The notes under the pieces: generated by a model
Told to the model about the DNA's origin: nothing
The model's input: the letters and a program-made list of their open reading frames with translations, nothing else
Database searches by the model: none
Shown: one piece after another, positions 1,490 to 19,977 of the stretch
Layout of the letters: each line of letters starts with the position of its first letter
Position numbering within the stretch: the stretch's first letter is position 1
Source of the DNA: Betaproteobacteria bacterium
GTDB lineage: Bacteria; Pseudomonadota; Gammaproteobacteria; Burkholderiales; SG8-41
Direction of reading: 5' to 3'
Assembly (NCBI GenBank): GCA_025356695.1
Contig: JANXSE010000132.1
Coordinates: forward strand, 1 to 25,203
DNA: 25,203 bases
Position numbers and translations under genes: made by a program

Positions 1490-1514
1490 ACGCGTCCCGA
1501 CGGAGGAGCCTGAG

Positions 1515-2372: not shown

Positions 2373-2394
2373 TTCGCAGCATTCAGGAGGACAC

Positions 2395-3357: not shown

Positions 3358-3388
3358 ATTCCCCGGGGTTTGGTTTTGTCGTTTCGAC

Positions 3389-3407
3389 GATGATGCGAAG
3401 CATCATC
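3389..3407. repeat. Perfect inverted repeat in the convergent intergenic region
   Basis: Two 8-base arms, GATGATGC and GCATCATC, flank a GAA loop. It lies between the two convergent transcription units, 15 bases before the strong terminator hairpin. No T-run follows on either strand, so it is not a terminator by itself. It may stabilise the 3' end of the Bug mRNA or be part of a dispersed intergenic repeat. Confidence 0.6.
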
Positions 3408-3421
3408 TATTTCGGGGGATG

Positions 3422-3464
3422 CAAGGGGGCTACGCCCCCTTGTTCGGTTTTTTTTGCTTTTTTT
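3422..3464 (+). terminator. Rho-independent terminator of the plus-strand operon
   Basis: Perfect 9-bp stem CAAGGGGGC / GCCCCCTTG with a TAC loop (3422-3442), followed after TTCGG by eight T (3448-3455) and then seven more T (3458-3464). The T-runs lie only on the plus side, so it ends the Bug receptor transcript. It separates that transcript from the convergent glycosyltransferase-like gene, whose stop is at 3476. Confidence 0.85.
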
Positions 3465-3475
3465 GGTACTGCTTC

Positions 3476-5380
3476 TTAGACGCAGAAGGCCTGCGGCGGC
3501 TCGCCGCGCAGATGGCGCTGCCAGATGACTGCGTAGGCGGCTTCGAGCGCATGACAATGCTTCGCCGTGTCGAACAATGCGCAACCGGCACGATTGCGTT
3601 CGATACGACTGCGGATTTCAGCGAGCTTTGCCGGCGACGACGCCAGTTCGAGCGCGCGCGCTGCGTATTCGGCCGGCGTAGTCGTGATCAGTTCCGCCAC
3701 ACCCGCCGCGCTCAGCACGCTGGCGGCAACACGACCGGTAAAGGTTGCGCCCAGACAGGTCAGCAACGGCAATCCGGCCCACAGCGCATCGCTGGCGGTG
3801 GTGTGCGCGCTGCACGGCAGGGTATCAAGAAAGAGATCGGCGCAGCGCTGCCGCGCGAGATGCTGTTCCAGCGCCGTGCGCGGGGCGAACACCAGGCGTG
3901 ACGCTTCGACACCGCGCGCAACGGCTTCGCGGCGCAAATTCGCGGCGGCGTCTGCATTGTCTTCCAGCAACCACAGCACGCTGCCCTCGACCTGCTTGAG
4001 CAGGCGCATCCAGAGGTCGAAGACCGGCGGCGTAATTTTGTAGTTGTTATTGAAGCAGCAGAAGACGAACGCATCGCCGGGCAGGCCGCAGGCGGCGCGC
4101 GACGGCGGCGACTGCACCGCACCGCGTTTTGCATCGTTGACCTGATAACAGTCGGGCAGATAGACGATCTGTTCGCTGTAGTGCGCGGCATGTTCCGGCG
4201 GCAGCACGATGCGGTCGGCGATAATGTAATCGAAACACGGCAGCGCCAGCGTACCGGGAAAAATCTGGTAATTGATCTGCAGTGGCGCCGGGCGCCGCAC
4301 GAAGATGCCGGGCCGTGCGGTGCCGGTAAAGCCGTTGAGATCGATCAGCAGATCGATCTGACGGTCGCGGATTTCCGCCGCCGCCGCATCGTCGCTGTGG
4401 AAGCGGATGTCGACAATCTCGTCGAAGGCGCGGTTGATGCGCTGGCGTACCGCGCTGCCGTCGTCGCCGACCTTGTCGAAGGCGATCAGCTCGAAACGGC
4501 TTTTATCGTGCAGTTCGAACAGCCCGGCCATCAGAAAGCCGGTGGCGTGATGACGGAATTCGCCGGCGATGTAGCCGATGCGAATGCGGCCACCCCCGGC
4601 GCGCCGCGGCACCGGTGGCAATGGCACTGCGGTAAAGTCGGCGCCGTAGATTTCGGCGCAGCGGCGCTGGCTTTGCGGCGACGACACCACGGCCAGATAA
4701 GCGAAGGGTTCGATGCTGCGACGGCCGGCGGCGATGCCGGCTTCGACCGCGGCGGTCAATTCGTCGTAGCGGCTCCAGTCGCAGCAGATCATCGAGGCCT
4801 GCAGCAAGCGGCCTTCTGCATACGGATAATCCGGCGCGATCGCCAGCAGATTGCGATAGGCGGCAACGCCGTCGGCCGGACGCATCAGCAACATCAGCAG
4901 CACGGCGCGGTTGTATAAAGCCTCGACATAATAGGGGCGCACGGCCAGCGCCTGCTCGTAGGCGGCCAGCGCCTCGTCGTTGCGTTGCAGTTCCTGCAGC
5001 ACGTTGCCGCGATTGTTCAGGGCTTCGGCATCGCCGGGCTTGAGGGTCAGCACGCGATCGTAGCGGTCGAGCGCTTCGTCGAAGCGACGCAGGCGCTGCA
5101 GGGCGAGGCCGCCGTTGAATGCGGCGTCGGCGAAATCGGGTTTCGCGTTCAGCGCCTGCGTGTAATCAGCCGCCGCGGCGGCAAAATCAGCCAGCGCCAT
5201 GCGCGCATTGCCGCGCTGGTAAAAAATCTCGGCGTTCCACGGATCGTATTCAAGCGCGCGCTCGATCCAGACGATGGCCTCGGCGGGGCGCTGCTGCTTC
5301 AGCAACATCCTGCCGCGCCGCATAAAATGCGCGGCGACGCCGAAGGCACGTACCAGATGACGAAACATTTCGTTAGACAT
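3476..5380 (-). CDS. TPR protein with O-GlcNAc transferase-like (SPINDLY/GT41) catalytic domain
   Basis: A 634-residue cytoplasmic protein. Residues about 15-185 form roughly five tetratricopeptide repeats, for example the units ending in ALEYDPWNAE, ALNAKPDFAD, VLTLKPGDAE and ALAVRPYYVE. Residues about 264-620 are a GT41 catalytic region. Seen motifs are GYIAGEFRHHATGFLM (H278 aligns with the active-site His of human OGT), LIDLNGFTGTARPGIF, INYQIFPGTL, FCCFNNNYKITP (K448 matches the UDP-binding lysine) and HTTASDALWAGLP (526-538). The family transfers a sugar from a nucleotide donor to Ser/Thr of proteins. In bacteria the substrates are mostly unknown, flagellins and adhesins being candidates. 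It lies 118 bases after the last Bug gene with no obvious terminator between, so it could be a read-through gene or have its own promoter. Its link to the catabolic block is uncertain. The ribosome binding site before the ATG is weak. Confidence 0.9.
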   Translation of the reverse strand: MSNEMFRHLVRAFGVAAHFMRRGRMLLKQQRPAEAIVWIERALEYDPWNAEIFYQRGNARMALADFAAAAADYTQALNAKPDFADAAFNGGLALQRLRRFDEALDRYDRVLTLKPGDAEALNNRGNVLQELQRNDEALAAYEQALAVRPYYVEALYNRAVLLMLLMRPADGVAAYRNLLAIAPDYPYAEGRLLQASMICCDWSRYDELTAAVEAGIAAGRRSIEPFAYLAVVSSPQSQRRCAEIYGADFTAVPLPPVPRRAGGGRIRIGYIAGEFRHHATGFLMAGLFELHDKSRFELIAFDKVGDDGSAVRQRINRAFDEIVDIRFHSDDAAAAEIRDRQIDLLIDLNGFTGTARPGIFVRRPAPLQINYQIFPGTLALPCFDYIIADRIVLPPEHAAHYSEQIVYLPDCYQVNDAKRGAVQSPPSRAACGLPGDAFVFCCFNNNYKITPPVFDLWMRLLKQVEGSVLWLLEDNADAAANLRREAVARGVEASRLVFAPRTALEQHLARQRCADLFLDTLPCSAHTTASDALWAGLPLLTCLGATFTGRVAASVLSAAGVAELITTTPAEYAARALELASSPAKLAEIRSRIERNRAGCALFDTAKHCHALEAAYAVIWQRHLRGEPPQAFCV

Positions 5381-5498
5381 GGAATGCGCGGGAATCCGTG
5401 ATCAAGTTTGCGCGGGCTGCATCGAAAACATCGGCGACGCACGCGGACAGCCCCGATAATACAAGTGAGCGCGGGCGCGGATCGAGGACTTTTGCCGC

Positions 5499-6530
5499 TT
5501 ATTCCTCGCGTATGCCGGCATCGCGAATCACTTTGCCCCAGCGCACGACATCGGATTTCATGGTGGCGGCAAAATCCTCGGGCGAACCGCCGAGTGTTTC
5601 GACGCCGGCGCTGAAAAATCGGTCTTTGACCTCGGTGCGCGCGAGCACGCGCAACGATTCCTGATTGATACGCGCAATGATTTCCGGCGGTGTTTTCGCC
5701 GGTGCAAACATGCCGTAGGTGGACACTGCTTCAAAGCCCGGCAGCCCCGCCGACGCCATTGTCGGCATACCGGGCGCAAGTTCCGTCGGACGTGCGCTGG
5801 TCACCGCGAGTGCTTTCAGGCGGCCCGACTTCACATGCAGCATCGCACCGCCGGCGGCCGGAAACATCAATTGCACCTGCCCGGCCATCAATGCGGTCAA
5901 GCCCGGGCTCGTGCCCTTGAAGGGCACGCGCACGATGTCGACATGCATCATCGATTTGAACAACTCGGCGCCCAGATGCATGGCCGAGCCGGCGGCACCG
6001 AAGGCGTAATTCAGTTCACCGGGTCGCGCGCGCGCCAGCGCGGCCAGCGCTTTGACGGATGCGACCGGCAATGACGGGTGGACCACTAATATGTTCGGTG
6101 CCATCGCCGCCAGGATCACCGGCGAAAAATCCTTCGCCGGGTCCCAGACCACATTCTTCATCAGCGGCAATATCCACAAGGCGCTGCTGTAGAGCAGCAG
6201 CGTGTGGCCATCGGGCGCGGCCTTGGCTACCGCCTGCGCGGCCAACGCGCCGCTGCCGCCACCTCTGGCTTCAACGATAACCTGTTGCCCGAACGCGGCG
6301 GTGAGTCCCTGCGCCAGCAGCCGCGCGGCGAGATCGTTGCCGCCGCCGGGTTCCGCGGTGACGATACGGACCGGCCTGGCTGGAAAATTTTGCGCGATGG
6401 CAACGGTGGCGCTCAACACCAAACCGGCACATAGTCCGATTGAAGTCCAAATGAAGGCGATCTGCGCTTTTTTAGCGCACCACGCCTCCAGATTGTTTTG
6501 GGGTCGCACCGCCGTTACGCCTGCGTGCAC
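5499..6530 (-). CDS. Bug family tripartite tricarboxylate transporter receptor (TctC-like)
   Basis: Periplasmic solute-binding receptor, 343 residues from the GTG at 6530. That start lies one base after the stop of the cyclodeaminase gene, which implies translational coupling. No clear Shine-Dalgarno sequence is visible, and an internal GTG at 6509 is an alternative. The hydrophobic stretch IAFIWTSIGLCAGLVLSATV followed by AIA and then QNFPARPVRIV is a Sec signal peptide with an unusually long charged N-region, which suggests a later start may be used. Family features include VRIVTAEPGGGNDLAAR, the APDGHTLLLY loop and the VRVPFKGTSPG segment. It is the third Bug gene of the window and clearly different from the other two, so a different ligand is likely. 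No membrane partner is nearby. Confidence 0.9.
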   Translation of the reverse strand: MHAGVTAVRPQNNLEAWCAKKAQIAFIWTSIGLCAGLVLSATVAIAQNFPARPVRIVTAEPGGGNDLAARLLAQGLTAAFGQQVIVEARGGGSGALAAQAVAKAAPDGHTLLLYSSALWILPLMKNVVWDPAKDFSPVILAAMAPNILVVHPSLPVASVKALAALARARPGELNYAFGAAGSAMHLGAELFKSMMHVDIVRVPFKGTSPGLTALMAGQVQLMFPAAGGAMLHVKSGRLKALAVTSARPTELAPGMPTMASAGLPGFEAVSTYGMFAPAKTPPEIIARINQESLRVLARTEVKDRFFSAGVETLGGSPEDFAATMKSDVVRWGKVIRDAGIREE

Positions 6531-6531
6531 G

Positions 6532-7500
6532 TCAGTTCGGCGGCAATTCGATCGGCAGCGCCATGCCGACTTTCTTTGCCAACGCGCGCTGGTAGACGAG
6601 ATTGGCGAGTGCGACGTCCTGACTGGCCATGCCCTGCGTGATGATCAGTACGCGCTGCGCTTCGCTGGTGCGGCCCGGATGTTTGCCGCTGACGACCTCG
6701 GCGACTGTGGCATCGACCCAGCCCGGCGCCTCGGCGCCGAACAACTCGGTGAGTTCTTTCTGCAGCTGCGCGCGGCTGTCGACGACGAAGAGATCGGACT
6801 TTTCGGCCAGATCACGCCCCGGCTCGGCACTGTCGAGCGTGGCGACCACGGTGCCGGGGCCGATCCACGATTCTTCGAGCATGGCACGCGCACTGTTGGT
6901 GGCGGTCAACACCAGATTGGCACCGCGCACGGCTTCCTCGATGCTGTCCACGGGTCGCGCGTTGACGCCGTAGCTGGCCTTCGCTTTGGCAGCGAGGGCG
7001 GCACGCGTTTCCGGGCGCCGCGAAGCGATGCGCACTTCTTTCAGCTTGAAGAGTCGCGTGAAATATTCGAGCGCGGTGGTGGCCAGACGCCCGGCGCCGA
7101 CCAGTGCCAGCGTGCCGGCGTCCTTGCGAGCGAGTTTGTGCGCGGCCATGACGATGGAGGCGACGGTGCGCTGCGCGTAAGTCCAGGTTTCATCGACGAG
7201 CGCGAGCGGGCGCGAACTCTCGACGTCGACCAGCATGATGAAGCGCGTCGCGTCCTGCGAGGTTTCATCGGTGGCGTTGTGCGAGACAAAACGGAAACCG
7301 CCGACCGAGGCCTCGTCGAGGATGCAGGCTTTCAGGTGGTAGTGGTTTTCAAAACGGTCGCGCATGTTCATGTTCGGCGGCACCGGCCAGCGCACCTTGC
7401 CGGCGGCGTCCTGCGCAACGACGCGCGAAATCTCCGCCAGCACGTCGTCCGGCGTAATCAGTTGGTGGCATTGTCTGGCGGTCAGATAGAGCAGCGGCAT
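6532..7500 (-). CDS. Ornithine cyclodeaminase / mu-crystallin family protein
   Basis: An NAD(P)-dependent cytoplasmic enzyme of 322 residues. The family includes ornithine cyclodeaminase, alanine dehydrogenase of archaea, and mu-crystallin/ketimine reductases that reduce cyclic imines. A Rossmann dinucleotide motif GAGRLA sits at 135-140, preceded by the family helix YAQRTVASIVMAAHKLAR containing R111. K57 in NHYHLKACILDEA is at the usual place of the substrate-binding lysine. A TLDSAEPGRDL segment matches the region of the catalytic aspartate. An AAGAAAG-type ribosome binding site lies just before the ATG. Lying between two Bug genes and downstream of an opine-dehydrogenase-like gene, it probably handles an imine or amino acid intermediate rather than ornithine. 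The substrate is inferred only from context. Confidence 0.9.
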   Translation of the reverse strand: MPLLYLTARQCHQLITPDDVLAEISRVVAQDAAGKVRWPVPPNMNMRDRFENHYHLKACILDEASVGGFRFVSHNATDETSQDATRFIMLVDVESSRPLALVDETWTYAQRTVASIVMAAHKLARKDAGTLALVGAGRLATTALEYFTRLFKLKEVRIASRRPETRAALAAKAKASYGVNARPVDSIEEAVRGANLVLTATNSARAMLEESWIGPGTVVATLDSAEPGRDLAEKSDLFVVDSRAQLQKELTELFGAEAPGWVDATVAEVVSGKHPGRTSEAQRVLIITQGMASQDVALANLVYQRALAKKVGMALPIELPPN

Positions 7501-7559
7501 GGGATGTCGTTCTTTCTTCAGTAGGATGCGTCGGCGCGCGCGGCGCCGACGCGGTGGAA

Positions 7560-8555
7560 TCAGGCGTCGGGTTTGATGCCGGCCTTGCGGATGATCGGAC
7601 CGATGATATCGCCCTCGAGTTTCAGCGTCGCAGCGAACTGCTCCGGCGTGTCACCGACGATATCGAAACCGATCTGCGCAAAGCGTTGCTGCACCTCCGG
7701 CAGTTTCAGCACGGTAACGATCGCATTGTGCAGTTTGGCAATGATTTCACGCGACGTGCCAGGCGGCGCGACGATGCCGTAGCGCCCGTCCATGGCGTGC
7801 ATCTTGACGCCGGCTTCGGTAATCGTCGGCAGATTCGGCGCCGCAGTCGGCCGTTTCGCACCGAGCGTGGCGAGCAAACGCAAGCGGTTGTTCTGTGCAT
7901 GCGGCATGGCGGGAATCAGGTCGGCGAACATCAAATCGATTTCGCCGGACACCACCGCCGTCAGCGCCGGCCCCGTGCCTTTGTACGGCACGTGCACCAT
8001 GCTGGCACCCGTGGCAGCCGAGAACAGTTCTGCGGCAACGTGCGAACTGGCACCACTGCCGGAAGAACCGTAGCTCAGCAGGTCTTTCTTCGACAGCGCG
8101 ATCTTGATCAGTTCTTTGACGTTCTTCGCCGGCACGCTCGGATTCACCGCAATCACGTAGGCGGTGACGGCAAGTTGCGACACAGTAGCGAGATCTTTCT
8201 GCACGTTGTAGCCGATCTTCGGATAGAGATGCGGCGCGACGACCAGATTGCCCGAGCTGCCCAGGCCCAGTGTGTAACCGTCGGGGGGCGCCTTCGCCAC
8301 CAGCTCCATGCCGATGGTGCCGCCGGCACCGCCGCGGTTTTCAATCACCACCGCCTGGCCGAGCGCTTCGCTCAACTTGGGGGCAACCACGCGGCCAGCG
8401 ATGTCGGCGGGGCCGCCCGGTGCAAAGCCGATGAAAACACGGATGGCTTTAGCCGGATAGTTGGAGGTCACCTGCGCAAAAACCGGTGTGGTGACCATCG
8501 ATGCGGCCAGCGACAAAATTGCCGCCGTGCCATTCAACGCGTCGAGTCTTTTCAT
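7560..8555 (-). CDS. Bug family tripartite tricarboxylate transporter receptor (TctC-like)
   Basis: Periplasmic solute receptor of 331 residues. I chose the ATG at 8555, preceded by a GGAAA box, because it gives a clean signal peptide: MKRLDALNG, then a hydrophobic core and VFA before QVTSNYP. The frame extends upstream to 8693, but the added residues contain cysteines and no signal features. The mature part shows IRVFIGFAPGGPADIAGR, the PPDGYTLGLG loop and the VHVPYKGTGPA segment typical of the family. The gene follows the tautomerase-VOC gene by 153 bases and is followed 59 bases later by the cyclodeaminase gene. A receptor in the middle of the enzyme genes suggests that the operon imports its own substrate, but no permease genes accompany it. 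Confidence 0.92.
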   Translation of the reverse strand: MKRLDALNGTAAILSLAASMVTTPVFAQVTSNYPAKAIRVFIGFAPGGPADIAGRVVAPKLSEALGQAVVIENRGGAGGTIGMELVAKAPPDGYTLGLGSSGNLVVAPHLYPKIGYNVQKDLATVSQLAVTAYVIAVNPSVPAKNVKELIKIALSKKDLLSYGSSGSGASSHVAAELFSAATGASMVHVPYKGTGPALTAVVSGEIDLMFADLIPAMPHAQNNRLRLLATLGAKRPTAAPNLPTITEAGVKMHAMDGRYGIVAPPGTSREIIAKLHNAIVTVLKLPEVQQRFAQIGFDIVGDTPEQFAATLKLEGDIIGPIIRKAGIKPDA

Positions 8556-8708
8556 GGTGCGTATTTCCAAGTGAATGAAGGTGCCCCGATACAAGCAAGG
8601 ATCGTGACAGCTAACACGCCGATGACCTCTGCCCGCCTGCAGCCCCTCGTAGCACCATGCCGGCCTGATGGCGCACACAGTCAGTGCAGGCACTGGATGG
8701 CAAGGGTT

Positions 8709-9293
8709 TCAGCGCGGCTCTTCGTACAGCTCGATTTTATTGCCATCCGGATCGGCGACGTAAATCGTGCGGCCGTAGATGCCGTCGTGCAGATCCTGAA
8801 AAAATTTCACGCCGGCAGCTTTCAGGCGTGCGGCCAGCGCATCGACGCCGCTGACGCGAAACGCCATGTGATCGATTTGCGGCGCGCCGCCGGGCCCGCC
8901 GGTGGTCAGCGCAATGCCCTGTTTGAACGGCACGAAGGGGCGGCCGTCGGTGAGCGGCTTGGCGTTGCGCCCGGTGAAGCCCAGGAGCTCTGCATAGAAT
9001 TTTTTCGAGGCGTCGAGATCACGCACCTGCAGCAGCATATGTGCGAAGCCGAAAACCTTAGTCGCTTTCGGTGCGGGCGCTTTGGCCGGCGCATCGGGTT
9101 CGCCGGGTTCGTTATCGATGCCGAGGCGGCCATCGCGGCCCCAGCTTTCTTTTGCCACGTCGTGAATGATGACGTGCAGATGCTCGGAACCGGCGCCGGC
9201 ATGCTCCACCATCGCCTCAGTGATCGCGGCGACCAACCGCCGCTTCTGATTGACGCTGCGCCCCGGCCATAAATCGACTGTTACTACAGGCAT
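8709..9293 (-). CDS. Two-domain fusion: 4-oxalocrotonate tautomerase-like domain plus VOC (glyoxalase-fold) domain
   Basis: A 194-residue cytoplasmic protein made of two small enzyme domains. Residues 1-58 are a 4-OT-type tautomerase. After removal of Met the catalytic Pro1 is present (MPVVTVDLWPGRS), with Arg11 and a Trp at position 50 (KESWGRDG). The position usually held by Arg39 is His. A proline/alanine-rich linker covers about 59-80. Residues about 82-191 are a vicinal oxygen chelate domain with the expected metal ligand positions: HMLLQVRDL, IDHMAFRV and GNKIELYEE (His, His, Glu). Separately these families isomerise keto/enol acids and carry out metal-dependent dioxygenase, lyase or isomerase reactions. 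The fusion suggests consecutive steps on one intermediate. It lies 33 bases after the opine-dehydrogenase-like gene, in the same direction. The actual substrate is unknown. Confidence 0.9.
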   Translation of the reverse strand: MPVVTVDLWPGRSVNQKRRLVAAITEAMVEHAGAGSEHLHVIIHDVAKESWGRDGRLGIDNEPGEPDAPAKAPAPKATKVFGFAHMLLQVRDLDASKKFYAELLGFTGRNAKPLTDGRPFVPFKQGIALTTGGPGGAPQIDHMAFRVSGVDALAARLKAAGVKFFQDLHDGIYGRTIYVADPDGNKIELYEEPR

Positions 9294-9326
9294 AAGCCGC
9301 CTCCGTTGGTTCCGTTGTTCCGCGAA

Positions 9327-10412
9327 TCAGTGACGCACACGCGCCAGCAAACCCTTCAAATCCAGCCCGAGGATGCCCATCGCCGCGGCACCGCGGCCGC
9401 CGTCGCGATAATTCTTGCCGACCAGAATCTCCGCCAGCTTGAACAGATTGTCCGCCGCCGGCACAGCAACGCCGGCGATTTTCGCGATGGCCCTGAACGG
9501 CAGCAGGCCGTGACCGAAATCTTCCAGATAATAACGGTGATTGAGCGAGCCCGGCGCCTTGATGCGGCTGTTGGCGACACCCGATGCAATCGCAGCGGCG
9601 AAATCAGTGCTATCACTGACGTGTTTCTCGACCGTGCCGATGGCCTGCATTTCTTCGATCAGGTTGGGCAGCGTGTGACCGCAAGCGCGCGCCACCGCGC
9701 GCCGCTCGTCGTCGAGCGTGCGCATGACGCGCGCCACTCCCGGCGTCATGCCCTGCGCGTAAAACGTGTAATCGCCGGCGGTGGCCTCGATCCACGCCGC
9801 GCCGAGGATCGCGCCGGGGGGATGCAACACCATGTTGACGTTGGCGAGCCCCGAGGCCAGCACATCGACGACCGGCTTCGCACAGGGAAACAGTTGCACC
9901 GCGATCTCGACCGCGCGTTCGCTGCCGGGCAGTGCGGCGACGCGCACCTGCTGCGCACGCCCGCTAATGTTGACGCGCTGCGGCTGGCTCTTGCGCGCAA
10001 CGTAGGTCAGTGTGGAAAACTCCGCCACCGGCGGCACATCGGCGCGCTGCTTTTTGAATGCGGTTTCGAATTCGAGCGCGCCGCCGGTGTGGCCCGGGTT
10101 GAGGATGACCGGCACATCGGCGCGCGCACCGGCCTGAGCCAATGCAATCGCCACCGCGGCGTGTGAAATCGTCGGCAGGGCAATCACCAGCGCAGCGCAG
10201 CCGTCGATCGCTGCGCGCAGATCGGCGGTGATCAGCAGTGGCCTGGCGAGACCTGTGCCGAATACGCCTTCGTGTTCAACGCCGCCGAGGCGCTGAAACG
10301 GTTCCAACGTGGCGGCCGAGCGGTTCCACAGCTGGACTTCGTGACCGGCCTGCGTGAGTTCGACGACCGCCGAAGCACCGCCCGCCCCTGCACCGAGAAC
10401 GGCAACGCGCAT
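9327..10412 (-). CDS. Opine dehydrogenase-like protein (NAD/NADP octopine/nopaline dehydrogenase family)
   Basis: A 361-residue cytoplasmic oxidoreductase. The ATG at 10412 was chosen because the Rossmann motif MRVAVLGAGAGG then lies at the very N-terminus, as is usual. The frame could extend to 10466, but that part runs through the end of the upstream gene. The stop of the upstream M24 gene and this ATG share one base (TGATG), indicating coupled translation. The C-terminal half carries the all-helical octopine dehydrogenase domain, seen in NMVLHPPGAILGAAWIE and the following VARVMRTLDDERRAVA. Family members join or split an amino acid and a 2-oxo acid through a secondary amine, using NAD(P)H. 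Here a role in oxidising or forming a secondary amine in a catabolic route is likely. The substrate is inferred, not shown. Confidence 0.88.
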   Translation of the reverse strand: MRVAVLGAGAGGASAVVELTQAGHEVQLWNRSAATLEPFQRLGGVEHEGVFGTGLARPLLITADLRAAIDGCAALVIALPTISHAAVAIALAQAGARADVPVILNPGHTGGALEFETAFKKQRADVPPVAEFSTLTYVARKSQPQRVNISGRAQQVRVAALPGSERAVEIAVQLFPCAKPVVDVLASGLANVNMVLHPPGAILGAAWIEATAGDYTFYAQGMTPGVARVMRTLDDERRAVARACGHTLPNLIEEMQAIGTVEKHVSDSTDFAAAIASGVANSRIKAPGSLNHRYYLEDFGHGLLPFRAIAKIAGVAVPAADNLFKLAEILVGKNYRDGGRGAAAMGILGLDLKGLLARVRH

Positions 10413-11545
10413 CAGCGTACCACCAGCAAACGATCGGTATTGGCGTAATCGGACAACAACTCGCAACCCGTTTCAGTCACCAGCATCATGTCCTTGTTCT
10501 GCATGCCGTAACCGTAACCGGTTTGATAACACAGCGGCTCGACGCCGAGCACCATGCCGGCTTCGAGTTGCGCATCACCGGTCTTGCCGATCTCCGGCGT
10601 TTTGCCGATGTAGGGGTCTTCGTGCAGATGCAGCCCGATGCCGTGGCCGACAAAGGAAATCGGCGGCAGCTTGAGCTCCGACAATTTGCGGATGAAGGCT
10701 TCGTAGATCACGCGGCAGCTGGCACCCGGCTTGATCATGTCCATCAGCAGGTATTTGCACTCGACGAGGTTCTGCCAGATTTTTTCGGCGTGCGCGGGTG
10801 CGCGCTGCACGACCGCAGTGCGGCAGACGCCGGCCTGGTAACCCGCGATCACCGAGAAAATTTCGACGCGGCAGACGTCTTCAATCTGCAGCTTGCGCTC
10901 GCTCGGCCCGACGTTGGGCAACTGGCTGCGCTCGCCGGTGGCGACGATCATAAGCTTGAAGTGTTCGGCGCCCAGTGTGTAAATGTTGCGCGTCATGTGC
11001 GCGGCGATATCCATTTCGCTGTCGCCCGTTTTGACGGCGGCCAGCGCATCGGTGATCGACTGGTCGGCGATACGCGAAAGGCGGCGCAGCAATTCAATTT
11101 CATCGGCGGTCTTGATCTGCCGGAGGCGTGCCAGAATCGCTTCATTGCCACTGAAGGTTGCCTTCGGCAACTCACGCGCGAGGCGCGCAAAATCGCCGGC
11201 CGGCAGGTAATCCATTTCGATGCCGATGCGCGCCGCTTCCAGTCCGAGTTCTTTGAGCTGCAACGCCAGCACGGCCATCGCGCTGTCGGTAAATTCGGCC
11301 CAGATGCGCGACGGCGTATCCGGCTCGCGCCGCTTGATGGTGGTCGCTTCCATATCAACACCGAAAATCGCCGCTCTGCCGTCGGCAGTGACGATCACCA
11401 TCGCATGACGGTGGCGAACCAGCGGCTGCGAGGGCACGACAAAGCCGGTCAGGTAGGCGAAATTCTCCGGCGAACAGGAGATCATGGCGTCGAGGCCTGC
11501 GGTCTGCATGGCCTTGACTTGTTTGGTGACGATTTCTGGTCTCAT
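10412..11545 (-). CDS. M24/creatinase-fold hydrolase with substituted metal ligands
   Basis: A 377-residue protein with the creatinase N-terminal domain (about 1-140) and a pita-bread C-terminal domain. M24 metallopeptidases use two Asp, one His and two Glu to bind two metals. Here the aligned positions read E228 (VEIF), G239 (in GYQAGVCRT), H301 (GHGIGLHLHEDP), E336 (GVEP) and K351 (NKDMMLVTE). Only the His and one Glu are therefore kept exactly. Creatinase shares the fold and works without metal, splitting a C-N bond of creatine, and ectoine hydrolase is another relative. A metal-free amidase or amidinohydrolase type activity is thus more likely than prolidase activity. The gene starts 2 bases after the stop of the enolase-superfamily gene and overlaps the next gene by one base, so it is firmly part of the operon. 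Confidence 0.88.
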   Translation of the reverse strand: MRPEIVTKQVKAMQTAGLDAMISCSPENFAYLTGFVVPSQPLVRHRHAMVIVTADGRAAIFGVDMEATTIKRREPDTPSRIWAEFTDSAMAVLALQLKELGLEAARIGIEMDYLPAGDFARLARELPKATFSGNEAILARLRQIKTADEIELLRRLSRIADQSITDALAAVKTGDSEMDIAAHMTRNIYTLGAEHFKLMIVATGERSQLPNVGPSERKLQIEDVCRVEIFSVIAGYQAGVCRTAVVQRAPAHAEKIWQNLVECKYLLMDMIKPGASCRVIYEAFIRKLSELKLPPISFVGHGIGLHLHEDPYIGKTPEIGKTGDAQLEAGMVLGVEPLCYQTGYGYGMQNKDMMLVTETGCELLSDYANTDRLLVVR

Positions 11546-11547
11546 GG

Positions 11548-12708
11548 CTACGCGGTCGTACGATATTTTTCGATTTTGGCCTCATCCACCGCGATGCCCA
11601 TGCCTGGCGTCATCGGCACTTCGATCGCGCCGTCCACGAACTTCATCGGTGCGACGAGCAGATCGTCCTTGTAATAAATACCGGCGATGCGGTCGTTCTG
11701 GAACTCGGCCGGCGTCGACACCGGTATCACGCAGGACAATGTGGCCGCCGGCGCCGCAGCGGCGAACTGCACGTTGGCGAGATTGCCGACACCGGTTTCA
11801 ATCGAGCCATTGACGTTGCAGACGATGCCCGCCGCGCGGCATACCGCGGCGACTTCCATTGCGCGATAGAGCCCGCCGGGTTTGGTGGTGTAAATCGAGA
11901 TGATGTCGATCGCGTGCTGTTCGGCGATCTGGATTGCATCGTGCGCATTCCACGCCGACTCGTCGGCCATCACCGGCGTATCCAGAGCGCGCGCAACTTC
12001 GGCAATGCGTTCAATCCCCATGCACGGCTGCTCGGCGTACTTGAGGCGCTGCTTTTCCATTTCGCGCAGGATCACGACTGCTTCACCCGGCGTTTTGTAG
12101 CCTTCGTTGGCATCAACGCAGATGTCGACATCGGGCCCCGCGGCATTGCGCACTGCACGCACCATGTCGATGTCGCGTTTGGCATCGACACCGATCTTGA
12201 CCTTGATAGTCCTGATGCCTTCCTTGACGACCTGTGCGACTTCCTTCTCCGCGTCGGCAATCGCAATCAAGCCGATCGAGTGCGTCACCGGCACGCGCGC
12301 GCGCGCGCAGCCGCCCAACAGCGTGTGCACCGGCACGTTGAGCGTTTTTCCGGCCAGATCGTAGGCGGCGAATTCAACCGCCGACTTCGCATACGGATAA
12401 CCCTTGATCACCGCATCCATGCGTGCGTGCAGCTCGACGATATTGCACGCATCAACGCCCTTCACCGCCGGCGCGAGATACCGCGCGATGATGAGTTCGA
12501 CGATGGCCGCCGATTCGCCGAAGTAACGGCCGAATTCGCCGCCCCAGTCTTTCAGCGCGGCCGCCTCACCCCAGCCGATGCGGCCGTCTGCGTCGGTCAT
12601 TTTGGTCAGAATGTAGCGGCCGATCGGTTCGGTCAGGCCGGTCCATTTGTGTTCGCGCCGTGTCGGCAGTTGCACGACGACGGTTTCGAGGGAAACGATG
12701 CGGCTCAC
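11548..12708 (-). CDS. Mandelate racemase / muconate lactonizing enzyme family protein (enolase superfamily)
   Basis: A 386-residue cytoplasmic enzyme that should abstract a proton next to a carboxylate with Mg2+ help. The start is a GTG at 12708, with little Shine-Dalgarno sequence. The MLE-subgroup catalytic pattern is complete: K169-V-K171 on the second strand, metal ligands D199 (VDANEGY), E226 (YAEQP) and D249 (MADES), and K276 (TTKPGGL) on the opposite side. The N-terminal capping domain covers about 1-125. Members of this subgroup include muconate cycloisomerase, dipeptide epimerases, o-succinylbenzoate synthase and N-acylamino acid racemases, so the reaction cannot be fixed. Together with the downstream opine-dehydrogenase and creatinase-like genes, an amino acid derivative is a reasonable substrate guess. 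It follows the molybdenum subunit gene after 92 bases. Confidence 0.92.
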   Translation of the reverse strand: MSRIVSLETVVVQLPTRREHKWTGLTEPIGRYILTKMTDADGRIGWGEAAALKDWGGEFGRYFGESAAIVELIIARYLAPAVKGVDACNIVELHARMDAVIKGYPYAKSAVEFAAYDLAGKTLNVPVHTLLGGCARARVPVTHSIGLIAIADAEKEVAQVVKEGIRTIKVKIGVDAKRDIDMVRAVRNAAGPDVDICVDANEGYKTPGEAVVILREMEKQRLKYAEQPCMGIERIAEVARALDTPVMADESAWNAHDAIQIAEQHAIDIISIYTTKPGGLYRAMEVAAVCRAAGIVCNVNGSIETGVGNLANVQFAAAAPAATLSCVIPVSTPAEFQNDRIAGIYYKDDLLVAPMKFVDGAIEVPMTPGMGIAVDEAKIEKYRTTA

Positions 12709-12800
12709 GTTGTGCCCGTGACAATAGTGGTTTGAAAAATGGTGGGTTGTTGCAATGGAAACTACGTCTGCAGTTTATCGGTGATGCAGTGGTGGTGCAA

Positions 12801-15098
12801 TCACGCAACCCCGGGACTGCGGGCGTTTTGGATCATCTGCCAGACGCGCGCCGGCGACAGCGGCAAGGCGTTGGGCTGCACGCCGAACGACGACAGCGCC
12901 GAGGCCACGGCATTGGCAATCACACCGCCGACCGGAATGATGCCGCCCTCGCCCGCGCCCTTGACGCCGAGCGGATTGAGCGGCGATGGATACTGTTCAA
13001 GCGCAATCGAGCGGATACGCGGAAAATCGACCGCACAGGGAATCAGATACGCCGCCAGCGAGCCGGTCTGCAACTGGCCCTCGTCGTCGTAAACCATGCC
13101 TTCGAGCAGGGTGCCGCCCAGCCCCTGCACGATGGCGCCGACGGTCTGGCCGTGCAGCGTGTTCGGGTTCAGGATGCGGCCGACATCCTCAACGGCGACG
13201 TAGTCGAGGATTTCAATCCGGCCGGTCTGTGCATCAACCGTGATATGCGCGGCGTGTGTGCCGTAGCTGTAGGTGCGTTTTGAATTGCTGAATGTTCCCG
13301 CGGCATCAAACCCGTCGGTCGAGAGCTCTGCGAGCGTCATGCGGTGCCGGCCGGCAATGACTGCGCGCAGGCCATCGACGATCGCAACTTCGTCGGCCCT
13401 GCAATCAAACCGCCGTGCAGCGGCCTCGCGGATCGTCGTTTTCAGATTTTCGGCGGCCATCAGAATAGCCGAGCCACCCATCACCGAAGCGCGCGAACCG
13501 AAAGAACCGAAACCCTCGTGGATGCCGGTGGTCGAGCCGTGATGCACGGCGGCGATGTGATCGATCGGAATTTCAAGCGCATCAGCGGCGATCTGCGCGA
13601 ATACCGTCTCCAGCCCCTGCCCGACCGCGGAGGCACCGACGGTAACGGTGACCATGCCCTGTGCGTCGAGCGCCATGCGCGCGTTCTCGCGCGGGCCGGC
13701 GGAACCGCCCTCGACATAACAGCCGAGGCCGAGACCATGGTAACGGCCGTCGATCAGCCTGCCCTGCAGCGTGGACTTTGTCTTCCAGTCAATTTCGGTC
13801 AGACAACGTTCGAGCGTAAGGACATATTCACCGCTATCGAATTCACCGCTGCCGCCATACGGCAACACCTTCGGCAGCGCGTACGGGATTTCCGCGGACG
13901 TGACGAGATTCCTGCGCCGCATCTCAACGCGGTCGATGCCGAGATCGGCGGCGGCAAGATCGATCATGCGCTCGCGGCAGAAATCGGTTTCGAAGCGGCC
14001 GGGCGCGCGATAGGTGCCGACCGGTGTTTTGTTGCTGACGTAGAGCGCGACGTCGATGTGTACATGCGGCACGCGATACGGGCCCGGCAGCAGTTGCGCC
14101 AGATTGCGCGACGGCGTCACCGCATTCGGCCGCGCATAGGCACCGAGGTTGGTCCAGGCCCGGCCGCGCAGGCCAAGGATGCTGCCATCACGACGGCAGG
14201 CAATTTCGAGTTCGCATTCGACTTCGCGCGCGTGGGTAGTCGCCATCAGATGCTCGCGCCGGTCTTCGATCCATTTCACCGGACTATTGAGGAGACGCGC
14301 GGCGAATGGCAGCAGAAAATCTTCCGGGAAGAATTCGCCACGCGCGCCGAAACCGCCGCCGATGTCGGTTTCAACCGCGTCGACCGCGTGTTCGGGCAGG
14401 CCGAGCATTTTCGCCAGCGCCGTGCGCACGAAAAACGGTACTTTGGCTGCACCGGAGAGCGTCATGCGCCCGCTTGCCGCGTCCCATTCGGCGATGAGGC
14501 CGCGCGTTTCCAGAGGCACCGCGGCGTGGCGGTGCACCTGGAAGGTTTCGCGGCGCGTGTACTCCGCCTCTTTGAAAGCCAGTTCGATGTCGCCGCGCAC
14601 GGCGCTCAGCCTTGCGGCCTGATTGCTGCCGCATTCTTCAAACAGCAACGCGGCACCGTCATCAAGGCCGCGGCGATTGGTAATGGCGGGCAAGGCATCG
14701 ATCTCGACAGCCACGAGGTTCGCGGCGTCTTCCGCGATCGCCGCGCTAACGGCAACCACCAACGCCACCGGCTCGCCAACATAACGTACTTTATCGCGCG
14801 CCATCACCGGCTGCACCACGCGATCGAGTGAAGGCTGCGATTCGGAGCGCACGGCGATGGTCGGAATGGTGTCGCCAAGATCAGCGGCGGTGATCACGGC
14901 GTGCACACCGGGCAGCGCCAACGCGGCGGCAGTGTCGAGGCTGCGGATGCGGCCGTGCGCAACTGCACTGCGCACCACCGCAGCGTGCAGCATGCCACCG
15001 CGCTTCAGGTCATCGATGTACTGGCCGCGCCCTCTGAGGAAGCGCAGATCTTCGATACGCTCGACGGGAGTCCCGATATAGGAATCCCGGCGCGTCAT
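12801..15098 (-). CDS. Molybdenum hydroxylase large subunit (xanthine dehydrogenase/CoxL family)
   Basis: A 765-residue molybdopterin-binding subunit of a heterotrimeric hydroxylase that inserts water-derived oxygen into a C-H bond of an (often N-heteroaromatic) substrate or an aldehyde. Seen are the N-terminal a/b hammerhead domain starting IGTPVERIEDLRFLRGRGQY, the cofactor motif DIGGGFGARGEFFPED (about 244-260), the loop GTYRAPGRFETDFCRERM, and near the end LGVKGAGEGGIIPVGG with the catalytic glutamate at about E717. The CO-dehydrogenase active loop with cysteine (AYRCSFR) is absent, so it is not a form I CO dehydrogenase. Its start overlaps the stop of the 2Fe-2S gene by 4 bases (ATGA), so translation is coupled. 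The order medium-small-large matches the Cox-type arrangement. The substrate is unknown. Confidence 0.95.
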   Translation of the reverse strand: MTRRDSYIGTPVERIEDLRFLRGRGQYIDDLKRGGMLHAAVVRSAVAHGRIRSLDTAAALALPGVHAVITAADLGDTIPTIAVRSESQPSLDRVVQPVMARDKVRYVGEPVALVVAVSAAIAEDAANLVAVEIDALPAITNRRGLDDGAALLFEECGSNQAARLSAVRGDIELAFKEAEYTRRETFQVHRHAAVPLETRGLIAEWDAASGRMTLSGAAKVPFFVRTALAKMLGLPEHAVDAVETDIGGGFGARGEFFPEDFLLPFAARLLNSPVKWIEDRREHLMATTHAREVECELEIACRRDGSILGLRGRAWTNLGAYARPNAVTPSRNLAQLLPGPYRVPHVHIDVALYVSNKTPVGTYRAPGRFETDFCRERMIDLAAADLGIDRVEMRRRNLVTSAEIPYALPKVLPYGGSGEFDSGEYVLTLERCLTEIDWKTKSTLQGRLIDGRYHGLGLGCYVEGGSAGPRENARMALDAQGMVTVTVGASAVGQGLETVFAQIAADALEIPIDHIAAVHHGSTTGIHEGFGSFGSRASVMGGSAILMAAENLKTTIREAAARRFDCRADEVAIVDGLRAVIAGRHRMTLAELSTDGFDAAGTFSNSKRTYSYGTHAAHITVDAQTGRIEILDYVAVEDVGRILNPNTLHGQTVGAIVQGLGGTLLEGMVYDDEGQLQTGSLAAYLIPCAVDFPRIRSIALEQYPSPLNPLGVKGAGEGGIIPVGGVIANAVASALSSFGVQPNALPLSPARVWQMIQNARSPGVA

Positions 15099-15580
15099 GG
15101 CGTGCCGCCCCGCTTCGGTGGTTTGTAGGCGGCGCGCGCTTCGAGTACCGCTTCGACAATGCCGATGTAACCAGTGCAGCGGCAGAGATTGCCGGAAAGT
15201 GCCTCACGAATGCGTGCTTCATCGCAATCAGGCTCTACGCTTAACAATGCGTGCGCAGTCATCAACATGCCCGGCGTGCAGAAGCCGCATTGCAGCGCGT
15301 GATGACGGCGGAACGAGGCCTGCAGCGGCGCGAGAATATCGCCATCGGCAAGACTTTCCACGGTTTCGATCTTGGCGCCGTCGGCCTGCACCGCCAGCAT
15401 CAAACAGGCACGTGCCGGTTTACCGTCGATGATCACAGTGCAGGCGCCGCACACGCCGTGCTCGCAGCCGACGTGCGTGCCGGTCAGGCCGAGCGTATGC
15501 CGCAGACAATCGACCAGCGTCAGACGCGGCTCGACATCGACCGCATGCGTTTTGCCGTTGACGTTGAGTTTGGTTTGCAT
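15095..15580 (-). CDS. Molybdenum hydroxylase 2Fe-2S subunit (CoxS family)
   Basis: The iron-sulfur electron-transfer subunit, 161 residues, carrying electrons from the molybdenum centre to FAD. The plant-type ferredoxin domain has cysteines C39, C44, C47 and C59 (GCEHGVCGACTV ... RAC). The C-terminal helical domain has C98 and C101 (QCGFCTPGM) and C133 and C135 (NLCRCTGY). All eight ligands for two clusters are present and the length is normal. It starts 2 bases after the stop of the FAD subunit gene and overlaps the large-subunit gene by 4 bases, so the three proteins are probably made in equal amounts. Confidence 0.96.
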   Translation of the reverse strand: MQTKLNVNGKTHAVDVEPRLTLVDCLRHTLGLTGTHVGCEHGVCGACTVIIDGKPARACLMLAVQADGAKIETVESLADGDILAPLQASFRRHHALQCGFCTPGMLMTAHALLSVEPDCDEARIREALSGNLCRCTGYIGIVEAVLEARAAYKPPKRGGTP

Positions 15581-15582
15581 GA

Positions 15583-16443
15583 TCAGCGCGGGCGCGACGC
15601 GGCGCGTTTGAGCGCGCGTCCGGTCAGTGTCTCGACCAGCGCGCGGCGGTAAACGGCAGGCGCGTCAATATCGTCGGCAGGATCGATGGCGGCGGCCGCG
15701 GCTTGTGCGGTTTGCAGGATGGCGGCGTCATCGATAGCGCGCCCGTTTAGCACGGCCTCGGCATCGGCGATGCGCTGCAACTGCGCGCTGGCACCGATCA
15801 CGCCGATATGCACATTGGCAGCGACACCGTCGTGCAAGTCGTAATAGAGCGCGATGCCGGCCAGCGCAAAAGCGCCGTGCTGGCGCGCGAATTCTTCGAA
15901 AGCCCAGCGGCGTGCCGCCGGCCACGGCGGCAGACGCAGTTCGGTGACGAGCTCATCATGCGCAAGTGAGGTCATCATCGGCCCGGTGAAAAAATCTTTT
16001 GCCGCGATGGTGCGTGCGCCGTTGCGGCCGACGGCGGTAATTTCGGCGTCGCAGGTCACCGCGATACCCGGCAGTTCGGCCGCAGTGTCGGCATGCGCAA
16101 TGCTGCCGCCGACGGTACCGCGGCTGCGGATCGGATAATGCGCGACGTAAGTGACTGCATCGGCGAGCAGTGGATGTGCGGTGACGAGGCGTTGGTCCGC
16201 CTCGATGTCGCACCACCGGACCCTGGCGCCGAGACAGATGCCGCGCTCCGAAATCGTAATCGTGTCGAGCCCGGGAATGCGGCGCAGATCGACCAGCAGC
16301 GACGGCGCGGCAAGACGAAACGCGAGGATCGGAATCAGGCTCTGCCCGCCGGAGAGCGGCAACGCATCTTCATGCGCGGCCAGCAATTCGATCGCTTCGG
16401 CGAGCGTCTGCGGCGCAGCGTAATCGAAAGCGGGCAGCTTCAA
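15583..16443 (-). CDS. Molybdenum hydroxylase FAD-binding subunit (CoxM family)
   Basis: The flavoprotein subunit (286 residues) that passes electrons to the final acceptor. Family features are the N-terminal FAD-binding stretch LPLSGGQSLIPILAFRL, the VDLRRIPGLDTI strand, and the IRSRGTVGGSIAHADTAAELP segment that binds the flavin pyrophosphate. The C-terminal CO_deh_flav_C-like domain ends in VYRRALVETLTGRAL. The only start that keeps the family N-terminus (KLPAFDYAAPQTL) is a TTG at 16443, as a stop lies a few codons upstream. A rare start codon on the first gene of the operon may limit its translation. It is the first gene of the minus-strand catabolic block, with 137 bases before it that could carry the promoter. 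Confidence 0.93.
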   Translation of the reverse strand: MKLPAFDYAAPQTLAEAIELLAAHEDALPLSGGQSLIPILAFRLAAPSLLVDLRRIPGLDTITISERGICLGARVRWCDIEADQRLVTAHPLLADAVTYVAHYPIRSRGTVGGSIAHADTAAELPGIAVTCDAEITAVGRNGARTIAAKDFFTGPMMTSLAHDELVTELRLPPWPAARRWAFEEFARQHGAFALAGIALYYDLHDGVAANVHIGVIGASAQLQRIADAEAVLNGRAIDDAAILQTAQAAAAAIDPADDIDAPAVYRRALVETLTGRALKRAASRPR

Positions 16444-16580: not shown

Positions 16581-17606
16581 TTATTTGAAACGCAGCCCGC
16601 GGATCGAGACAAACTCGGGGTCGCCGCAATTCGCAAGAATCACGATTTTCAAATAACGGCCTTTCGCGACGGCGAGCAGGCCGAGATTCAACCACCCGTC
16701 ATCGGAATTCGGCGCGCAGGGGATTTCCGAGGCGGCCTGTGAAGTCCAGGTGTTGCTGTCATCGCTGGATTCGATGCGGACTATTTTGGGGACGCGAGTC
16801 TGGTTATCGGTTGGCATGAGCATGCCGATCATTTTGATTTCACGGCCCGTCTGAAAGTCCACCACCAGCGTCTCCGGATACGCAGGCGGACTGGCCGACT
16901 GCCACGCCTTTAACGACAGCAGTCCCTCAGGGCCCATCTGACGGGATTGCGAACTCGCGGTGACACGTGGCCCGGCTGTTGCGGACGACTTGATCGGCAG
17001 CCGGGTGTCCGGCGCCACAATCGCCGGCGGCGTCGATGCGACAGGCGCTGCGGTTTGGCGATAACGCAAGGCTGCGTTGGCCGGTTCCGCATCCTTTTGC
17101 GCGTCGATGACGAATTGCCGGAACGCGGGCGAGAGTTGCGCGAGGTCTTTGATGACGACGGGCCGCGGTTTACCGCGCGCCACGCCAGCGTAAAATTTCA
17201 CCGCGGCGGCACTGGTGTAAAACTTCGGACTGCCGGCAAAGCGCTCGAAGGTCTCGCGCCGCCACAGGCCCTGCCGCTGCCCTTTGCGCGCGCCGCCCGA
17301 GAAAAAGTATACGTACCTTTTTATCCTGCCATCGACTGTGAGCGTACCTTCCTGCCGCAACACGCCCTTGCCCTCGATCAGCCCGCGTTTGCACTGGCCG
17401 TCCCACGTGACTGTTCCCTGCGCGGCGATTTCCTGCAGGCGCTTGACCGTGGATTCATCGCTGAGGAGCTTGCAGCCGTTTGCCTCGACGAATGCGACCA
17501 GCTTCGGTGCCGCCGATGCAACCAGACTGATGGCGCTGCAAAACAAAACGACAATGATGCGGGCGAACAACATGAATGGGCCGTGTGCACGGTTGGGTTC
17601 ATGCAT
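16581..17606 (-). CDS. Secreted protein with MORN-like N-terminal region and discoidin (F5/8 type C)-like C-terminal domain
   Basis: About 341 residues from the ATG at 17606. An ATG at 17573 gives a tighter signal peptide (MLFARIIVVLFCSAISLVASAA, then PKLV) and is a good alternative. Neither has a clear ribosome binding site. The frame runs back through tRNA-Phe, which cannot be coding. After the signal peptide comes a region with a MORN-like unit (WDGQCKRGLIEGKGVLR) and a Trp/Tyr-rich stretch. A proline/alanine-rich linker follows, and then about 125 residues of a beta-rich domain resembling discoidin folds (VTASSQSRQMGPEG ... VVDFQTGREIKMIGM ... VRIESSDDSNTW ... GRYLKIVI). Such domains bind carbohydrates or surfaces. 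I do not recognise the whole protein, and a periplasmic or surface binding role is only inferred. It is transcribed in the same direction as the tRNA, 89 bases behind it. Confidence 0.7.
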   Translation of the reverse strand: MHEPNRAHGPFMLFARIIVVLFCSAISLVASAAPKLVAFVEANGCKLLSDESTVKRLQEIAAQGTVTWDGQCKRGLIEGKGVLRQEGTLTVDGRIKRYVYFFSGGARKGQRQGLWRRETFERFAGSPKFYTSAAAVKFYAGVARGKPRPVVIKDLAQLSPAFRQFVIDAQKDAEPANAALRYRQTAAPVASTPPAIVAPDTRLPIKSSATAGPRVTASSQSRQMGPEGLLSLKAWQSASPPAYPETLVVDFQTGREIKMIGMLMPTDNQTRVPKIVRIESSDDSNTWTSQAASEIPCAPNSDDGWLNLGLLAVAKGRYLKIVILANCGDPEFVSIRGLRFK

Positions 17607-17695: not shown

Positions 17696-17771
17696 TGGTG
17701 GCCAAGGACGGAATTGAACCGCCGACACAAGGATTTTCAATCCTCTGCTCTACCAACTGAGCTACTTGGCC
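17696..17771 (-). tRNA. tRNA-Phe (anticodon GAA)
   Basis: A 76-base cloverleaf on the minus strand. The acceptor stem GGCCAAG pairs with CTTGGCC, followed by discriminator A and an encoded CCA (17696-17698). The D arm has AGCTCAGTTGGTAGAGC. The anticodon arm GGATTGAAAATCC has GAA in the loop, and the T arm contains GGTTCAATTCC. The anticodon arm is nearly the same as in E. coli tRNA-Phe. A clear promoter lies upstream. Confidence 0.97.

Positions 17772-18007: not shown

Positions 18008-19977
<1,970 letters not shown>

Follow-up and report, generated by a model that had tools for sequence, protein, structure and literature searches.

A ten-gene betaproteobacterial locus with a probable, so far undescribed pathway for the breakdown of a nitrogen-containing heterocyclic carboxylate

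Organisation of the locus

The window analysed here is the whole stretch of 25,203 nucleotides of a betaproteobacterial contig (JANXSE010000132.1, assembly GCA_025356695.1). Positions 5499-16443 hold ten open reading frames (ORFs), all on the minus strand and each above the Pfam gathering cut-off of its family. The nearly gapless one-strand set of named families, described before in a sequence-only reading of this DNA, is confirmed by all ten cut-offs.

In the order of transcription, the first three genes encode a trimeric molybdenum (Mo) hydroxylase. Its FAD subunit (15583..16443; FAD_binding_5/CO_deh_flav_C, PF00941 144 bits, PF03450 62.7 bits; the TTG start is uncertain) is 82-95% identical to those of related loci L006-L010, and is followed by the [2Fe-2S] subunit (15095..15580; Fer2/Fer2_2, PF01799 102 bits, PF00111 37.5 bits) and the molybdopterin cofactor (Moco) subunit (12801..15098; Ald_Xan_dh_C/MoCoBD, PF02738, PF20256, PF01315). 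The three core genes come next: an MLE-subgroup enolase-superfamily enzyme (11548..12708; MR_MLE_N/C, PF13378/PF02746), a creatinase-fold (M24) enzyme that lacks the peptidase metal site (10412..11545; Creatinase_N/Peptidase_M24, PF00557/PF01321) and an opine-dehydrogenase-family enzyme (ODH, 9327..10412; Octopine_DH, PF02317, 123.7 bits against a cut-off of 30). A 4-OT-type tautomerase fused to a VOC domain (8709..9293; Tautomerase+Glyoxalase, PF01361 63.8 bits, PF00903 61.6 bits), the Bug/TctC receptor Bug1 (7560..8693; TctC, PF03401, 235 bits), an ornithine-cyclodeaminase/mu-crystallin family protein (OCD, 6532..7500; OCD_Mu_crystall, PF02423, 151 bits) and a second receptor, Bug2 (5499..6530; TctC, PF03401, 186 bits), complete the set.

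The junctions measure +2 bases (FAD/[2Fe-2S]), -4 ([2Fe-2S]/Moco), +92 (Moco/MLE), +2 (MLE/M24), -1 (M24/ODH), +33 (ODH/tautomerase-VOC), +15 (tautomerase-VOC/Bug1, longest ORF), +59 (Bug1/OCD) and +1 (OCD/Bug2). The ODH start is placed at 10412, not 10466, because Met at 10412 is invariant in a 13-row alignment. According to the gene caller, Bug1 starts at 8594, which gives a gap of about 114 bases after the tautomerase-VOC gene. The +1 junction uses the longest Bug2 ORF (GTG at 6530); the alignment with the L006 orthologue (94% identity) starts only at 6446, the gene caller chooses 6419, and the probable start lies at 6419-6446 or nearby. Co-translation had been deduced from junctions of -4, -1, +1 and +2 bases; those of -4, -1 and +2 are real, and the +1 junction is weak evidence owing to the doubtful Bug2 start codon.

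The ratio of nonsynonymous to synonymous substitution rates (dN/dS, NG86) is 0.04-0.18 across the ten genes in comparison with L006 and L010, and the genes are under purifying selection. The promoter scan gave no promoter-like site on the minus strand; terminator-like sites (16, against 12.2 with a standard deviation of 4.4 in shuffles) are close to shuffle level, and the RNA-family scan found nothing except one tRNA.

Relatives of the locus and conserved residues of the enzymes

Related loci were collected by comparing the 13-row ODH alignment with genome contigs. From the 137 relatives confirmed, the best 80 (L006-L085) were kept and supplemented with five plasmid neighbourhoods (L001-L005) picked from 20 records, so that with the window the set comprised 86 sequences, whose genes were called by our own script and then clustered. 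Length filters before alignment left 64 of 66 MLE, 44 of 45 isochorismatase-VOC and 9 of 14 tautomerase-VOC proteins; all 60 M24 and 85 ODH proteins were kept.

In M24 metallopeptidases such as prolidase and aminopeptidase P, five ligands (D, D, H, E, E) bind the metal, and a PH motif contributes a conserved His. In alignment with prolidases and DoeA of S. meliloti, the five positions read E228, G239, H301, E336 and K351 in the window protein, and the conserved peptidase His reads N211. N211, E228, H301, E336 and K351 are invariant in 60/60 M24 proteins, and G239 in a 27-row alignment. Because three of the five metal ligands and the conserved His are replaced, this protein, currently annotated with its branch as an Xaa-Pro peptidase family, is by its remodelled active site not a metallopeptidase. 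No description of such a remodelled site was found in the open-licence PMC literature.

E228 aligns with a Glu of S. meliloti DoeA, itself aligned to Glu255 of ectoine hydrolase (6twk). Glu255 reportedly forms a covalent intermediate, according to a 2020 paper in the Journal of Biological Chemistry. Ectoine hydrolase DoeA/EutD resembles the window protein in its pita-bread fold, the lost peptidase metal site and the Glu at this position. In contrast, the identity is 24%, the window protein keeps H301 and E336 and has Asn211 in place of DoeA His238, the gene partners differ, and the NCBIfam DoeA equivalog model gives 84.9 bits against a cut-off of 613. The structural model of the M24 protein (predicted local distance difference test, pLDDT, 93.5) has DoeA as its first fold match, tied with creatinase and dipeptidases, so that hydrolase and peptidase relatives are not separated.

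The MLE subgroup is marked by a KxK motif, three acidic ligands and a second Lys. All are present in the window enzyme, and K169, K171, D199, N201, E226, D249, E250 and K276 are invariant in 64/64 aligned proteins. Among solved structures its nearest relatives are the muconate cycloisomerase/N-acylamino-acid racemase group (2p88 best, 158 bits), which has the same KxK, D, E, D, K set, but the muconate cycloisomerase model TIGR02534 gives only 232.4 bits against 334.95. ODH matches N-(1-D-carboxylethyl)-L-norvaline dehydrogenase (CENDH, 1bg6) over nearly its full length (154 bits); H197, R293 and D298, aligned to the His, Arg and Asp of CENDH, are invariant in 85/85 proteins. By these residues and the Pfam cut-off it is assigned to the opine dehydrogenase family PF02317. 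Unlike CENDH, it lies in a conserved, catabolic-looking cluster.

The tautomerase-VOC fusion starts with MPVV, having Pro after the initiator Met as in 4-OT tautomerases. It passes the 2-hydroxymuconate tautomerase model NF002571 (57.4 against 55) and fails NF001966 (57.7 against 80); its VOC domain is single, of about 110 amino acids (aa). E717 of the Moco subunit, which we take to be the catalytic Glu of Mo hydroxylases, is invariant in 15/15 proteins, and by sequence the three subunits fit a molybdenum hydroxylase of the XDH family. Among solved Moco subunits, the closest are those of two N-heterocycle enzymes, namely 6-hydroxypseudooxynicotine dehydrogenase at 484 bits and quinoline 2-oxidoreductase at 434 bits; the partner genes of nicotine and quinoline breakdown are absent from the ten. 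Aerobic CO dehydrogenase form I, marked by an AYRCSFR loop, was rejected, as the loop reads TYRAPGR and TIGR02416 gives 399.9 against 991.15. OCD passes no NCBIfam ornithine cyclodeaminase sub-family cut-off (15/15 below, best 137.2 against 409.15). Of the tripartite tricarboxylate transporter only TctC occurs, TctA and TctB being absent among the scanned window genes; in L057-type relatives, Bug is followed by genes of about 153 and 503 aa, called TctB/TctA by size only.

The conserved core and its accessories

As the 86 sequences were collected through ODH and many of the contigs are truncated, the counts of all other genes are lower bounds. ODH was found in 85 sequences (the tblastn relative L085 gave no gene in the ODH cluster), MLE in at least 66, M24 in 60, a DpaA-like dehydrogenase in 57, the hydantoinase-like amidohydrolase AH2 in 49, 4-OT in 47, an isochorismatase-VOC fusion in 45, the deaminase-like amidohydrolase AH1 in 39, tautomerase-VOC and the Moco subunit in 14 each and OCD in 8. 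MLE, M24 and ODH occur together in 59/86 sequences, in 45/86 additionally with a tautomerase, and M24 directly follows MLE in 52.

Co-occurrence independent of linkage was determined in 250 genomes of one order, centred on the Variovorax genome of L018, and 249 of a second, centred on the Mesorhizobium genome of L028. In the first order MLE is present in 8 genomes, M24 in the same 8 and ODH in 7 of them; in the second the counts are nested (MLE 4, ODH 5, M24 6). Fisher p values of 3e-15 to 3e-8 ignore phylogeny; both centre genomes count among the positives, and 5 of the first order's 8, centre included, were already known from the ODH loci. ODH lies on a different contig from MLE-M24 in five genomes (G010, G022, G023, G024, G037). 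In G021 a complete ODH adjoins a luciferase-family gene (L061), and elsewhere (L097) MLE, M24, AH1, AH2, the DpaA-like gene, 4-OT, a 227-aa gene and isochorismatase-VOC, most of the cluster called type B below, are grouped; a 40-residue ODH remnant (L097 5867-5986, minus strand, 62.5% identity) stands there beside the DpaA-like gene, the usual place of ODH. Such a split is stronger evidence than mere adjacency that the architectures belong to one pathway. Among 17 genomes picked from ODH loci of several types, 16 carry MLE with at least 70% identity; the exception is G008.

Since the core genes co-occur in samples of two orders, the set in the window is not a chance neighbourhood. The earlier claim that the genes belong together has accordingly passed the check in relatives as regards MLE, M24 and ODH. 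Conservation of all eight families in exact order, suggested earlier as a check, is confined to one small group. What recurs together in many bacteria of soil and water is a smaller unit with a wider distribution than was assumed: MLE, M24 and ODH, usually joined by a tautomerase. The Mo hydroxylase, OCD and Bug receptors are accessories that can be exchanged.

The small group, type A, consists of the window, L006-L010, L012 and L013. The order MLE>M24>ODH>TautVOC>Bug>OCD is kept in 8/8 of these OCD-carrying sequences, and the Mo hydroxylase lies directly upstream in 6/8, being split in L012 and beyond the contig end in L013. The other seven are 63-98% identical to the window. The flanks of L006, L008 and L010 match it too, and the type-A order thus partly reflects close kinship, with L012 and L013 less closely related. 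A hydantoinase as an essential type-A part was rejected: HyuB-HyuA genes, which match models of caprolactamase subunits best but score far below the cut-off, occur between OCD and Bug2 only in L006 and L010 (2/8), the window lacking them. The titles of the metagenome-assembled genomes (MAGs) of L006, L009 and L076 (Chitinophaga, Bordetella, Klebsiella) seem doubtful; ODHs of L006 and L009 group with rows whose titles name betaproteobacteria.

In type B the core is accompanied by amidohydrolases (deaminase-like and hydantoinase-like), the DpaA-like dehydrogenase, the isochorismatase-VOC fusion and an ABC transporter, and L020, L023, L026 and L081 have all three Mo hydroxylase subunits as well. 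The hydantoinase/allantoinase-like enzyme scores below curated cut-offs. The functional residues D17, K118 and C151 of the isochorismatase part and H218, H275 and E321 of the VOC part are kept in 44/44 aligned proteins. On plasmids of Aminobacter, Shinella and Phyllobacterium, where the cluster is annotated only, AH1, AH2, the DpaA-like enzyme, isochorismatase-VOC and an NMT1-type ABC transporter replace the window's Mo hydroxylase, OCD and Bug; MLE is 73-75% and M24 74-75% identical to the window (L001-L004), ODH 61-62% (L001-L005), and a tautomerase is present. No characterisation of this plasmid cluster was found in the open-licence PMC literature. An N-nitroglycine link via Variovorax JS1663 (L018) was dropped, no connection to the cluster being visible in the part of PMC11035981 consulted.

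A protein of roughly 227 aa also belongs to type B (L028 13316-14020). An assignment as Asp/Glu racemase was withdrawn, since neither Pfam nor PDB sequences gave a match for the L002 copy; the L028 copy, when modelled (pLDDT 84), only weakly matches phytanoyl-CoA hydroxylase/PhyH-type oxygenases (E 7e-4, TM 0.35). On Aminobacter plasmid pAA03, TniQ/TniB/transposase copies in the same orientation (L005 3171-6526 and 21478-24833) flank part of the type-B cluster in a composite-transposon-like manner.

In a further group of 12 loci, ODH is followed by a luciferase-family gene. The only one scanned (L057) has F420-type enzymes as best models, below cut-off. F420-biosynthesis-type genes (radical SAM/CofH, CofD, F420 ligase) and the luciferase-family gene lie near ODH in L057, a betaproteobacterial MAG (1566-6488, 11110-12105), and two clusters of F420-biosynthesis-type genes recur in five loci.

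The unrooted ODH tree unites the eight type-A rows with type-B L011 in a group of nine (100/94), which lies beside 44 rows, 36 of them type B. Because of this placement beside mostly type-B rows, an exchange of accessory enzymes is the probable origin of type A. A close AH2 is absent from seven type-A genomes (G001-G007), while the same search gave 77 and 81% in two type-B genomes; the type-A matches are full-length at 30-32% in G001, G006 and G007, fragments in G002-G004 and nothing in G005. The DpaA-like gene had no match in G001-G007, in a search without positive control, and isochorismatase-VOC was not found whole in these genomes, only its VOC part (56-59%) or isochorismatases at up to 37%.

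Upstream of the operon the window carries, on the minus strand, an F5/8 type C domain protein of 330 aa immediately before the Mo hydroxylase (16581-17573; 91% identical in L006), tRNA-Phe (17696-17771), Cpn60 (18008-19660) and Cpn10 (19690-19977); Cpn10-Cpn60 are upstream in L010 also, and Cpn60 in L008. Downstream, a TPR plus GT41 (O-GlcNAc-transferase-like) protein (3476-5308, minus strand) is shared with L006 and L010. Positions 2-3357 (plus strand), converging on the operon, encode an AMP-dependent acyl ligase, a Bug receptor and a member of the polysaccharide-deacetylase family, which comes closest to allantoinase PuuE (108.6 bits against a cut-off of 424.6). L095 and L008 carry the same genes at 91-98% identity, and L096 has part of them.

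Proposed pathway and alternatives

The window probably holds one form of an undescribed pathway by which a nitrogen-containing heterocyclic carboxylate is broken down (probability about 0.6). Most likely, the route opens a cyclic amide or amidine N-heterocycle and proceeds through an opine-like secondary amine; the breakdown of one single substrate, its identity and the reactions are what we infer. The enzymes come from families whose substrates are C-N bonds, as had been stated earlier of the creatinase-fold and opine-type enzymes, or carboxylates. All these families are known, and for their combination no description was found in the open-licence PMC literature, in line with the previous impression that no characterised pathway has this set.

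Bug receptors could capture the anionic substrate on the outer side of the inner membrane, and the Mo hydroxylase could hydroxylate a ring carbon next to nitrogen, as the quinoline and hydroxypseudooxynicotine enzymes do. The M24 enzyme would then open the ring hydrolytically at the amide or amidine C-N bond through E228, in the manner of ectoine hydrolase; in relatives, hydantoinase-type enzymes might also do so. MLE could epimerise or isomerise the open carboxylate through K171/K276, and tautomerase-VOC could shift a double bond or a keto-enol group. ODH would oxidise the opine-like secondary amine to an amino acid and a 2-oxo acid, perhaps glyoxylate, or perform the reverse reduction, and the OCD-family enzyme would act on an imino acid. 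The hydantoinase theme, namely the type-B hydantoinase/allantoinase-like enzyme and HyuB-HyuA of L006 and L010, suggests a ring-opening route of this kind. Malate synthase G (10 fetched loci) and D-amino-acid dehydrogenase (17) hint at glyoxylate.

That distant bacteria share the route in full, with a Glu nucleophile of the remodelled M24 enzyme opening a cyclic amidine or amide, MLE and tautomerase reshaping the acid and ODH cleaving the secondary amine to give an amino acid plus a 2-oxo acid, be it glyoxylate or a different one, is a tentative and rather doubtful proposal. Because of the deaminase, Mo hydroxylase, hydantoinase-like and ureido-type hydrolase genes of the wider cluster, pteridine or pyrazinone rings are, speculatively, one candidate substrate class; their opening would give N-carboxyalkyl amino acids. 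Tetrahydroxypteridine cycloisomerase, an orphan enzyme, enters as speculation only, nothing on it being found in the open-licence PMC literature.

The cluster could instead serve to recover free opines or aminopolycarboxylates (N-carboxyalkyl amino acids that come from soil organic matter); the entry substrate would then not be an N-heterocycle, and the amidohydrolases and Mo hydroxylase would serve side compounds. The retained CENDH residues of ODH agree with such salvage, opine-type substrates are carboxylates, fitting Bug receptors, and malate synthase G and D-amino-acid dehydrogenase would fit glyoxylate release. It is nevertheless unlikely, as it leaves unexplained the remodelled M24 site and the Mo hydroxylase, deaminase-like, hydantoinase-like and Cys-amidohydrolase genes accompanying the core. 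Several unrelated short transcription units lying together by chance would explain the gaps of 92, 59 and 33 bases and the absence of Mo hydroxylase and OCD from most relatives; the gene order kept in all type-A sequences and the co-occurrence of unlinked MLE, M24 and ODH make this improbable.

There is little probability of a divergent eut/doe pathway for an ectoine-like compatible solute, with M24 and OCD standing for DoeA and EutC. The Glu at the Glu255 position, the tied first fold match and an OCD-family partner, like EutC in L086, speak for it, but the M24 score lies far below the DoeA cut-off, OCD reaches 89.6 bits against 471.65 for EutC, and His238 is lost. DoeB/EutB, and the ectoine cluster (doeA with doeB and eutBC; cf. 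L086) as a whole, are missing among the scanned window genes (one 63-aa ORF was unscanned). MLE, ODH, tautomerase and Mo hydroxylase are not known to take part in ectoine breakdown. In ectoine catabolism as presented in PMC13188858, eutD is essential, and the partner genes of that system are absent from the window. Still slightly less probable is aromatic-ring catabolism with MLE as muconate cycloisomerase and tautomerase-VOC as ring-cleavage partner. Muconate/chloromuconate cycloisomerase is the best NCBIfam model of MLE, the 2-hydroxymuconate tautomerase cut-off is passed, and the VOC fold resembles extradiol dioxygenases; against this, MLE falls short of its cut-off, the VOC domain is single, the ten genes include no ring-hydroxylating or full catechol dioxygenase, and the partners in other loci are amidohydrolases and C-N enzymes.

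If the N-heterocycle pathway is real, its hosts would include cultured and tractable members of Aminobacter, Shinella, Mesorhizobium, Bradyrhizobium and Variovorax. The pathway would provide a function for a non-peptidase M24 branch and for a family of bacterial opine dehydrogenases, and one core would be coupled to different entry systems: a Mo hydroxylase with OCD, amidohydrolases or a luciferase-family enzyme.

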